A DNA stretch of 64,000 nt from Syntrophaceae bacterium (GTDB lineage Bacteria; Desulfobacterota; Syntrophia; Syntrophales; UBA2185), in assembly GCA_003153775.1 (NCBI GenBank), contig PMBI01000011.1, forward strand, positions 24,303 to 88,302. The letters are read 5' to 3'. The position numbers were made by a program, and so were the translations under genes. Below are positions 3,238-6,145 of the stretch, piece after piece. Every line of letters starts with the position of its first letter. The stretch's first letter is position 1. The notes under the pieces were generated by a model. That model did no database searches, had not been told where the DNA came from, and saw nothing but the letters and a program-made list of their open reading frames with translations.

Positions 3238-3936
3238 CTATTTTGATGTACAAACAAGTTTCCCTCCAGCAGTATTAACCATCGTTCCCTGGCGTCCGTT
3301 CGGTGCGAGACAGGGGTCACCCAGCCCCGCGCACGTTACATTCGGCGGTATGCCAACAACTTTCCCCTGGCTGCCGTTCTGGGCGGTACAGGGATCGCCA
3401 GGACCGGCACAGACCATGTTCGACGCTGTGCCATAAACTTTCCCGGGGCCGCTCTGTGCGGGGCAGGGATCACCGAGGCATGCACACACCATATTCGTCG
3501 GTGTACCGAAGACCTTCCCCGGACCGTTCTGTGCAGGGCAGGAATCGCCCAAACCGGCACACACCATGTTCGTCAGCGTGCCGAAAACTTGTCCTGGACC
3601 GTTCTGTGCGGGACATGAATCACCCAGACCGGCACACTTGAGGTTGCCCGCGGTGCCGAACCAGCGTCCCGGCCTCATCGATGCTGTAATGCAGGACGAA
3701 CCAGGCGTTGCATTTGCTTTAACCCCTCCCGCTCCCGCATTGGAAGGCGGTGTCACTTTGGTATCCGTGCCACCAAGATTAAGTCCCGGCGGGATTTTGG
3801 GACCGTCTGTTAGCGGCGAGGTATCCCCGCCGCCGATTGGTGGACCGGCCAAACACGTCGGTGTATTCAAATAAGCGAAAACTCCCAGGGTAATGGATAA
3901 GAAGACGACGATCATCTTAACACTCAGCATCCTCAT
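3238..3936 (-). CDS. Secreted Cys-rich protein with five 25-residue repeats
   Basis: The 232-residue protein begins with a signal peptide (MRMLSVKMIVVFLSITLGVF, likely cut after CLA at residue 30). A Gly/Pro-rich linker to about residue 80 follows, and then five repeats at residues 101-125, 126-150, 151-175, 176-201 and 202-228. The repeat core is CAGLGDSCPAQNGPGKVFGT, so each unit has a C-x6-C pair. Unit 3 has an extra Cys (CACLGD). The Cys spacing suggests disulfide-linked modules in an exported, possibly surface, protein. I recognise no named family. A signal peptidase I site fits better than a lipobox. Confidence 0.65.
   Translation of the reverse strand: MRMLSVKMIVVFLSITLGVFAYLNTPTCLAGPPIGGGDTSPLTDGPKIPPGLNLGGTDTKVTPPSNAGAGGVKANATPGSSCITASMRPGRWFGTAGNLKCAGLGDSCPAQNGPGQVFGTLTNMVCAGLGDSCPAQNGPGKVFGTPTNMVCACLGDPCPAQSGPGKVYGTASNMVCAGPGDPCTAQNGSQGKVVGIPPNVTCAGLGDPCLAPNGRQGTMVNTAGGKLVCTSK
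3253..3636 (-). repeat. 75-base tandem coding repeat
   Basis: The DNA encoding the five Cys-rich units is itself a tandem repeat of about 75-81 bases. The first two units (residues 101-150) differ at only a few codons; the later ones are more diverged. This pattern suggests unit duplication and copy-number change within the gene. Confidence 0.65.
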
Positions 3937-4370
3937 GATATTTCCTCCTCATCTTGCTTCTGCGGGTCTACGGTGTGTTTACTGAATTGATTAGACTCAC
4001 GCTGTTCCGCACGGTATCCATAAGCTTCATAAGGTAGAACATCTCTTATGTCAAGGACATTTCGGCACAAGATTTTTCCTTATGGCCATCGTTGTTTGCC
4101 TGTTTCGTTAAGTCTTACCGTTATGAGGATTATCAAGCTTTACATAATGGTCAATTGTACTAAATATAATTGTATCCCGCCCCTATCATAGGACAAAGAC
4201 TAATAGATCGCAGAAAACTGTCGCATTCTTCCTGCAGTCAACGGACCTACCTTTCTTGCATGAATAGAATATTTCGATGCGTAATGATCACCGCTATCGG
4301 GACTGTGAATATCCCTGTAGTCGTATTCCTCTTGACATCAAAACGCCTTAACTTATAGAAGATGATTGGA
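3937..4370. other. No gene seen; likely lost body of a group II intron
   Basis: This stretch carries the ribosome site of the Cys-rich gene at its left edge and otherwise no supported reading frame. A 62-codon frame at 4170-4358 shows no reverse-transcriptase motif. The right end (TATAGAAGATGATTGG, 4354-4369) resembles the stretch between an intron-encoded ORF and domain V, so the region may be eroded intron sequence. Confidence 0.35.
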
Positions 4371-4460: not shown

Positions 4461-4490
4461 TGTACTCAATAAACTATGGTCAAAATTCGG

Positions 4491-4524
4491 TATTTTTAAG
4501 AGTATTACCATTGTCTTAAAAATA
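4491..4524. repeat. Dispersed 34-base palindromic element, copy 2
   Basis: ATTTTTAAGA (4492-4501) and TCTTAAAAAT (4514-4523) form a perfect 10-base stem around a 12-base loop. It matches copy 1 (1201-1234) at 26 of 34 positions, with the same spacing between the arms' centres. It lies about 30 bases beyond the group II intron end and about 110 bases before the nuclease gene. Confidence 0.55.
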
Positions 4525-4632
4525 TCCCGGATTTCTTCGACATATTCTGAGAAATTTTGTATATTACCGCAAGTATTTGCTTCAGTTGTTATCACCATAA
4601 ATCACACTCTCTTCAAATTAAGGGAGAAATCC

Positions 4633-5160
4633 ATGAGAAGAATCACCACCGCAGTTTTGTTGTTCCTTGTTTTGAGTTTCGTCACCATCACTGCGTTCGC
4701 CTTCCAAGCTGACATTACGAAGGCCTGCTTTTCTCCCAAGGGCGGATGCACAGAAACCATTGTCGAACAGATCAACGCTGCAAGCTCAGAGATCCTGCTC
4801 CAGGCGTATTCTTTTACATCAGCCTCAATTGCAAAGGCTTTACTGCATGCTTACAAACGTGGCGTTCACGTGGAAGCAATACTTGATAAGAGCCAGCGGA
4901 AAGACAAGTACACATCAGCTACCTTTCTTGCGAATACCGGTATCCTTACCTTCATAGATGATAAACATGCCATAGCTCATAACAAGATCATGATCATTGA
5001 CAAGGAAATGGTAATAACCGGTTCCTTCAACTTCACGAAAGCTGCAGAGGAAAAGAATGCAGAGAATGTGCTGATCATCAAATCCAAGGAACTGGCAAAA
5101 CTTTACATAGACAACTGGTATAAGCATAAGGAACATTCTGAGACGTACGAAGGGAGATAA
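4633..5160 (+). CDS. Exported phospholipase-D-family nuclease (Nuc type)
   Basis: The 175-residue protein has a signal peptide (cleavage near AFA, residue 23) and one HKD motif. The motif reads AIAHNKIMIID followed by GSFNFTKAAEEKNAEN (about residues 115-148), giving H, K, D and the GSxNF block. Single-HKD proteins of this size are Nuc-like endonucleases that dimerise to build one active site; known members are exported and often plasmid-borne. A strong AGGGAGA site precedes the ATG. The next two small genes follow with 2 bases and a 4-base overlap, so the three probably form an operon. Confidence 0.85.
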   Translation: MRRITTAVLLFLVLSFVTITAFAFQADITKACFSPKGGCTETIVEQINAASSEILLQAYSFTSASIAKALLHAYKRGVHVEAILDKSQRKDKYTSATFLANTGILTFIDDKHAIAHNKIMIIDKEMVITGSFNFTKAAEEKNAENVLIIKSKELAKLYIDNWYKHKEHSETYEGR

Positions 5161-5162
5161 GA

Positions 5163-5345
5163 TTGTACATGGCCAAGCCCATTGATTCCAAAGAAACCGT
5201 TGACGTGATGGAACTACTCTTGTCAGAAGTTATTCAGTCAGAGGCCCTTATCAACCTTCTTGATAGTAAAGGTATCATCAGAAAAGAAGAACTTCTTGAA
5301 GAAATAAAACGGGTTCGTGTCACGACGCTGACATCTGTTAAATGA
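5163..5345 (+). CDS. Small acidic helical protein of unknown function
   Basis: The gene starts 2 bases after the nuclease stop. A TTG start at 5163 has an ideal distance from GGGAG (5152-5156); an ATG at 5169 is the alternative. The product is 58-60 residues and predicted all-helical, with the stretch TVDVMELLLSEVIQSEALIN followed by a charged helix (KEELLEEIKRV). It has no signal peptide or Cys. I recognise no family. Its tight coupling to a secreted nuclease raises the idea of a cytoplasmic partner or immunity factor, which is only inference. Confidence 0.6.
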   Translation: MYMAKPIDSKETVDVMELLLSEVIQSEALINLLDSKGIIRKEELLEEIKRVRVTTLTSVK

Positions 5346-5500
5346 AATTGTTAGTGAACATAGCCCTCGGAGCAGTTTTGATAAGTAACGCAATTTATTT
5401 GAATGCCTCGTATGGCAACGGTCTTGTTGGTATTGTTGTATTGATGGGCTTCGCCTTCATGAGCATTCTAATCGTACTTCTTGTGAACCATAGTAAGTAA
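5342..5500 (+). CDS. 52-residue membrane microprotein
   Basis: The ATG at 5342 overlaps the previous stop as AATGA, a translational-coupling arrangement. The 52-residue product (MKLLVNIALGAVLISNAIYL at the start) has two hydrophobic stretches, about residues 2-20 and 29-48 (GLVGIVVLMGFAFMSILIVL), joined by a short polar loop, and ends VNHSK. It is therefore probably a two-helix inner-membrane hairpin. No family is recognised. Coupling to the two genes before it suggests a shared function. Confidence 0.6.
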   Translation: MKLLVNIALGAVLISNAIYLNASYGNGLVGIVVLMGFAFMSILIVLLVNHSK

Positions 5501-5550: not shown

Positions 5551-5580
5551 ACTTAACTTGGTCTGACCCCCAAGGCGCCC
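5551..5580. repeat. Direct repeat flanking the XRE locus, left copy
   Basis: ACTTAACTTGGTCTGACC and the following CCCAAGGCGCCC match 6118-6145 (ACTTAACTTGGCCCGACC...) closely over the first 22 bases. The two copies bracket the truncated toxin and its antitoxin, about 567 bases apart. The element type is not identified. Confidence 0.45.
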
Positions 5581-5609: not shown

Positions 5610-5750
5610 ATCTGGACAATATACCTAAAAAGGGTATATCATTTTAAAAATGGCCGACCAACATATGTGGCGGTTTGGGAAGTTATTGATAAGAAGATAA
5701 AAATTGTTGAGGTGATCTATGCGGGAACGCGAGAGAAAGCACCCTACTGA
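5610..5750 (+). pseudogene. 5'-truncated RelE/HigB-like toxin
   Basis: An open frame without a start codon runs from just after TAA (5607-5609) to TGA (5748-5750). It encodes 46 residues that include YLKRVYHFKNGRPTYVAVWE and end KIVEVIYAGTREKAPY. From memory, this C-terminal pattern, with a final G-(T/S)-R-E-x-A-P-Y, is typical of a family of roughly 110-residue RelE/HigB-like toxins. The N-terminal half is missing, and the left direct repeat lies only 30 bases upstream, so a rearrangement probably removed it. The XRE gene follows, as expected for the antitoxin. Confidence 0.55.
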
Positions 5751-6090
5751 TAGTAGGTTTGATGGTATTATTGTAAGCCGAATTTTAAGGGGGCCAAAAG
5801 AAAGAGAAAATGATCTGATTAAGATGGCTAGGAGAATTGGTTTTGAGGATGTTTCCGAACTAGTTCCCTGGAAAGAGGCATTTTCCGATTATTCCGATGA
5901 ACAATTGCCGGGTGCGAGCCTTGCGGGTGCGAGACACAAAGACGGTCTTACACAAAAACAGCTTGCAGATAAACTTGGCATAGCCCAGGGCTATGTTTCT
6001 GATATGGAATGCGGTAAAAGGTCTATCGGAAAAACTATGGCAAAAAGATTGAGTAAGGTTCTCAACATCAATTATAAGGTTTTCTTATAG
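5719..6090 (+). CDS. XRE-family antitoxin
   Basis: The protein has a C-terminal helix-turn-helix domain: GLTQKQLADKLGIAQGYVSD (about residues 77-96), then the helix GKRSIGKTMAKRLSKVL and the end NYKVFL. The preceding GASLAGARHKDGL is typical of XRE antitoxins paired with RelE/HigB-like toxins. The ATG at 5719 gives 123 residues but overlaps the toxin relic by 32 bases; an ATG at 5824 would give 88. The N-terminal 30 residues are therefore doubtful. It survives next to a broken toxin, so any present role would be as a free DNA-binding protein. Confidence 0.75.
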   Translation: MRERERKHPTDSRFDGIIVSRILRGPKERENDLIKMARRIGFEDVSELVPWKEAFSDYSDEQLPGASLAGARHKDGLTQKQLADKLGIAQGYVSDMECGKRSIGKTMAKRLSKVLNINYKVFL

Positions 6091-6117: not shown

Positions 6118-6145
6118 ACTTAACTTGGCCCGACCTCCAGAGCCC
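6118..6145. repeat. Direct repeat flanking the XRE locus, right copy
   Basis: ACTTAACTTGGCCCGACC is followed by TCCAGAGCCC. It is in the same orientation as the copy at 5551-5580. It ends about 15 bases before the stop of the convergent methyltransferase gene and marks the right edge of the accessory stretch. Confidence 0.45.

Follow-up and report, generated by a model that had tools for sequence, protein, structure and literature searches.

A predicted secreted nuclease and two conserved microproteins in a compact, leader-headed Syntrophales operon

RESULTS AND DISCUSSION

Organization of the locus

The window, a stretch of 64,000 nucleotides from a Syntrophaceae bacterium, carries three tightly packed genes on its forward strand, referred to here as P1, P2, and P3. 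The first encodes a nuclease with a predicted export signal and the other two encode microproteins; a conserved leader with a putative promoter precedes them. The features of the locus are as follows.

4480..4632, + strand: conserved operon leader, DNA identity of 85-91% to full copies and 95% to a partial copy in the same genus
4493..4522, no strand: 30-bp inverted repeat, TTTTTAAGA-N12-TCTTAAAAA, in the leader; also intergenic elsewhere in the genus
4537..4565, + strand: putative sigma-70-type promoter, TCGACA-17-TATATT, inside the conserved leader, named from a 10/12 consensus match only
4633..5160, + strand: P1, predicted exported single-HKD nuclease of the Nuc/NucT type (Pfam, motif, hydropathy)
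5169..5345, + strand: P2, acidic microprotein of 58 amino acids predicted to form a two-helix hairpin (homologues, selection, model); 60 amino acids if translation begins instead at the TTG at 5163
5342..5500, + strand: P3, protein of 52 amino acids with two hydrophobic segments (homologues, hydropathy, selection), in ATGA overlap with P2

The inverted repeat, with its fixed 12-base spacer, has 12 exact copies in five genomes of the family (including those at L228-L239) and none in the reversed control. It was considered as the operator of a regulon, a role that was rejected: the other copies are intergenic and have no consistent downstream gene, which makes the element look like a dispersed repeat.

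The nuclease

P1 encodes a protein of 175 amino acids with a single, complete HxK(x)4D(x)6GSxxF motif, beginning at residue 116 (HNKIMIIDKEMVITGSFNF), and it matches the Pfam family PLDc_2 (PF13091) with 90.3 bits, compared to a gathering score of 27; no other domain was found with Pfam. A hydrophobic stretch begins at residue 3 and ends in ..ITAFA|FQ, with AFA as a cleavage-like site, and this N terminus is signal-like as judged by hydropathy and inspection only. The N terminus, the complete motif, and the PLDc_2 match bear out the initial description of the gene product, made by a sequence-only reading of the window, as a nuclease with a signal peptide and a single HKD motif. A short single-domain protein with one HxK(x)4D(x)6GS motif is what characterizes the Nuc/NucT-type phospholipase D (PLD) nucleases.

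The solved relatives nearest to P1 are Nuc of plasmid pKM101, mitochondrial cardiolipin hydrolases of the MitoPLD/Zucchini type, and NucT. The best of them is the Nuc endonuclease (PDB 1BYR/1BYS), likewise a single-HKD protein of the PLD fold, with which residues 31-168 of P1 align at an E value of 1.4e-26 (1BYR) and with the active-site motif conserved. Similarity is weaker (E value of 1.6e-7) to NucT (HP0323) of Helicobacter pylori (PDB 6EHI), which likewise is a PLD-family nuclease addressed to the periplasm and has been proposed to function in purine salvage and in natural transformation (PMC5714352). P1 scores 38-60 bits against the NCBIfam NucT equivalogs (NF010490-NF010493), whose cutoffs are 211-351, and 51.7 bits against DrmC of DISARM, whose curated cutoff is 133; because these scores lie below the cutoffs, the name given here goes no further than Nuc/NucT type, and the protein is NucT-like rather than NucT. 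Reading of the neighbouring genes brought no DISARM gene to notice. The gene is under purifying selection, judging from dN/dS values of 0.12-0.21 (pairs with the window copy and dS below 1), and on its sequence P1 adds a member to an already well-known kind of secreted nuclease.

Two conserved microproteins

The P2 frame opens either at TTG 5163, 2 bases past the P1 stop, or at ATG 5169, 8 bases past it. The P2 homologues begin at the ATG position, whereas the spacing from a ribosome-binding-like site, AAGGGAG (5150-5156), is better for the TTG. The helical, acidic protein of 60 residues that had been described 2 bases after the nuclease is recovered with the TTG start; the pI of P2 is 5.0, and an AlphaFold model (25 aligned sequences; mean pLDDT of 88) predicts a two-helix hairpin comprising residues 7-33 and 39-57. 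The start of P3 sits inside the P2 stop (AAATGA). Here too the frame, the length of 52 residues, and the overlap with the preceding gene, originally given as AATGA, were confirmed, as was the membrane-protein character insofar as P3 has two hydrophobic segments.

Four further genomes of this family have homologues of P3, at 38-71% identity: G002, G003 (two copies), G005, and, weakly, G008, where no P2 adjoins it. P3 is confined to close relatives, the Syntrophaceae; an additional match, in G052, is marginal (E value of 0.004). Every one of the five P2-P3 pairs retains the 4-base overlap. Both genes are under purifying selection according to dN/dS values of ~0.1-0.46 for P2 and 0.1-0.41 for P3 (pairs with unsaturated dS; small proteins, hence rough values). 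Conservation at the protein level, which had been set beforehand as the point on which the two frames would stand or fall, was therefore found, and because they have homologues, a kept overlap, and dN/dS well below 1, P2 and P3 are not chance open reading frames.

P2 is more widely distributed. It was matched in 24 of 100 relatives by a single-sequence search and, within the order Syntrophales, in 36 of 155 genomes by a profile search. Of 395 genomes sampled across the phylum, 28 had a match (E value of 1e-4), the weakest of these 28 being short or marginal. The relatives in the contig scan were Syntrophaceae and other Syntrophales or Deltaproteobacteria metagenome-assembled genomes (MAGs), and several loci sit in MAGs labelled Bacteroidota or Bacillota, which are possibly misbinned. 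In the 155-genome profile survey P2 was broken in several genomes and is thus dispensable. A single plasmid, pSD of Geobacter anodireducens, carries P2, and no viral contig was confirmed when compared with the P2 alignment.

Neither microprotein has a family match in Pfam, NCBIfam, PHROGs, or PADLOC (for P2, no significant one), and a comparison of the P2 profile with PDB sequences and a Foldseek search with the P2 model returned nothing meaningful. The second half of P2, LLxxKGIIxxxEL, has a flavour similar to that of the SHOCT domain (PF09851), but P2 differs in that it stands alone and its first helix is long. A weak SHOCT match (E value of 0.004 or weaker) was seen in 2 of 25 P2 members; the window P2 has none in Pfam up to an E value of 1 and so is not assigned to SHOCT. 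P2 represents a microprotein family that is conserved, under selection, and as yet unnamed, scattered in the phylum beyond the Syntrophales, and P3 is a lineage-specific, coupled membrane partner.

A modular operon

Compared with its relatives, the trio is one arrangement, and the most compact one observed, of a modular Syntrophales operon that begins with a leader. The head module consists of the leader and the nuclease gene and the tail module of the overlapping P2-P3 genes; in the four cases that can be resolved, 0, 3, 3, or 6 unrelated genes lie between them. Four P2-P3 pairs have a left flank that can be read, those of the window and of the following three arrays, and each of these operons is headed by the nuclease.

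G003:C155: nuclease, HU, small lipoprotein-like gene, abhydrolase, P2, P3
G005:C205: nuclease, HU, small CBM-like gene (named by eye), unnamed gene, P2, P3
G002: nuclease, DUF169, HpaB, nitroreductase, cupin, DUF6933, HD, P2, P3

The HU, abhydrolase, DUF169, HpaB, nitroreductase, cupin, DUF6933, and HD genes were named by Pfam. The G002 order rests on an exact 141-bp assembly overlap that joins contigs C310 and C184, and the fifth P2-P3 pair (G003:C222) has lost its left flank at the contig start. Nearly all of the genomes are fragmented MAGs, in which loci end at contig ends and neighbours are hidden.

The middle genes of this operon of a nuclease and small neighbours thus vary among close relatives, and DNA similarity between arrays starts and stops near the borders of single genes, such as a DUF169 gene (91%), a Ppnp gene (90%), and a DUF3467 gene (88%). 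Between the window and G003:C155, similarity covers the leader and nuclease (4479-5163) and then P2 and P3 (5182-5490), with none reported beyond. Another contig of that genome (G003:C232) also carries this leader (95% identity over 88 bp), but next to it stand a DUF6933 gene and, after that, a 3' remnant of the nuclease gene (L076, 2056-3088), which looks as though the 5' part of the latter gene had been exchanged for another. Integron cassettes were considered as the source of these differences in single genes and are disfavoured by several of the neighbouring genes, which overlap or abut (ATGA, 2-10 bp) and so leave no space there for attC sites. A literature search on this gene set returned nothing relevant.

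P2 loci beyond the trio

Neighbours of P2 on the same strand and within 3.5 kb were surveyed at 66 loci, which are phylogenetically non-independent and include truncated ones; the survey used home-made profiles with one to few seeds each, with Pfam checks for some. An HKD nuclease was present at 11 of the 66 loci and a staphylococcal-type nuclease (SNase) at 8, along with HU (11), SLOG/YpsA-like (5), DUF6794 (5), nitroreductase (5), SRAP (4), and Y-family polymerase (3) genes. LexA was counted at 2 loci, a weak count in that one LexA profile seed had been misread and contained a stop. The genomes hold ~0.75 HKD and 0.37 SNase genes each, i.e., roughly one per 2.7-Mb genome, a density so low that the chance expectation is well under 1%, or well under one locus. 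By these counts, P2 adjoins secreted nucleases of two unrelated folds and HU far above chance and in distinct families, and its link to nucleases is real as a tendency but not exclusive; some SOS genes are enriched next to it as well. Most P2 loci have no recognized nuclease in reach, and P2 also follows hemerythrin-like, response-regulator, FMN-reductase, and other genes, several of them named by reading the sequence rather than by a search. In G018 (L177, 5422-5916) it is fused to the C terminus of a DUF6794-type protein. Distances between P1 and P2 proteins correlate weakly and nonsignificantly (Mantel r of 0.26, p of 0.086; 10 loci, low power).

On the G. anodireducens plasmid pSD (L252, 2283-5162), genes for SRAP, LexA, a small open reading frame, Y-family polymerase pieces, and a P2 relative stand in a row; the P2 open reading frame is missing from the distributed gene table. 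Palindromes of the Gram-positive-like form GAACNNNNGTTC lie ahead of lexA/SRAP genes at L085 512-523, L117 101-112, and L082 13106-13117, and this element, TAGAAC-N4-GTTCTA, is likely the LexA operator of these Syntrophales.

Proposed role of the operon

The explanation that best accommodates these observations, to which we assign a probability of roughly 55%, is that of an operon for DNA degradation or salvage whose tail pair, P2-P3, is accessory. On this reading, the nuclease would leave by the general secretion route, dimerize, and degrade DNA or RNA outside the cytoplasm, feeding nucleotide salvage and/or limiting incoming DNA by analogy to H. pylori NucT. A Sec-exported nuclease would act outside the cytoplasm, so there is no evident need for a cytosolic antidote, and none dedicated to P1 would be required if the enzyme were active only after export. 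P2 would be a cytosolic helical hairpin that acts with the membrane protein P3 in Syntrophaceae, and the pair would be an accessory factor of such operons rather than one specific to the nuclease; from the gene overlap and the topology it may be guessed that P2 is perhaps tethered to the inner membrane via P3. The functions of both microproteins are only guessed. Against the salvage operon, the association may be a matter of position, brought about by shuffling, rather than of function, P2 follows many unrelated genes and is dispensable, and the codivergence of P1 and P2 is nonsignificant, with many loci ending at contig ends. A DNA-scavenging unit had been one of two roles offered in the sequence-only reading, and it survives as the better half of that guess.

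The strongest competitor, though an unlikely one, is that P2 and P3 are hitchhikers in a recombining operon, in which single genes are swapped between leader and tail and the pair has no functional tie to the nuclease. The single-gene borders of similarity between arrays, the many unrelated genes that precede P2, its sporadic and sometimes broken occurrence in the Syntrophales, and the nonsignificant codivergence would all be expected from such swapping, but it does not readily account for the recurrence of P2 beside HU and secreted nucleases of two folds in distinct families, the nuclease-headed setting of all four resolvable P2-P3 pairs, or the purifying selection on both microproteins. A bolder proposal, more tentative still, is that P2 is a new family of helical adaptors shared by operons that handle nucleic acids and that P3 anchors it in Syntrophaceae, linking nuclease export or product uptake to the cell interior; P2 keeps company with HU, SOS mutagenesis genes, and exported nucleases that belong to two unrelated folds, which would fit this idea.

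Two more specific roles are improbable. In a DNA uptake (competence) unit, the nuclease would process incoming DNA and P3 would pass it on at the inner membrane. In H. pylori, inactivating NucT affects transformation modestly (PMC5714352), and HU genes recur in these operons, but no ComEA, ComEC, DprA, or pilus gene was recognized among the operons read (by reading rather than by a targeted search), and the intervening genes are mostly of metabolic or stress types. Similarly poor prospects attach to the idea that the operon is part of a DNA damage (SOS) response. The gene row on pSD and the SRAP or Y-polymerase genes near P2 at further loci suggest such a link, but the likely LexA operator is absent from the window leader, and the nearest match in the window (at 4035, with 3 mismatches) is not above chance level. 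LexA control of the window operon was accordingly rejected for the leader, which has no TAGAACN4GTTCTA-like site.

Least probable, compared with the salvage operon and all of the above, is the other role initially suggested, that of an antibacterial effector (the nuclease) with P2 or P3 as the immunity protein and P3 as an export or membrane part. The order of nuclease, small acidic protein, and small membrane protein, their tight coupling, and the dispersed repeats immediately downstream make this layout tempting, but it dissolves once relatives are read. Nucleases without these frames, named at the outset as a finding that would refute the initial reading, do occur: a genome of the same genus (G001) and a single-contig genome (G042) have the nuclease, intact at 71% identity in the former and at 61% in the latter, with neither P2 nor P3. 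A dozen or more genomes encode an intact nuclease of >=57% identity but lack any detectable P2, so the nuclease is not always accompanied by a would-be immunity gene. These unaccompanied close relatives and the lack of significant codivergence make an effector-immunity system unlikely. Further evidence against it is that one P2 family stands beside two unrelated nuclease folds and mostly beside no recognized nuclease, that P2 and P3 have no match in PADLOC or the other family sets, and that the signal-like sequence of the nuclease is an ordinary one, with no additional domain in the protein.

Flanking sequences

The trio had also been placed among mobile-element debris, which holds in part. 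Downstream, 22-bp direct repeats (ACTTAACTTGGYCYGACC..) at 5551-5572 and 6118-6139 flank a single HTH_3 gene (5719-6090), and their 17-base core occurs nine times in the genome and not in the reversed control; these dispersed repeats agree with the description, whereas no transposase was identified beside the trio. On the other side, at 3238-3936 on the minus strand, a gene with no Pfam or NCBIfam match encodes a secreted-looking protein that contains several similar cysteine-containing repeats (CAGLGDxCPAQNGPGKVFGT).
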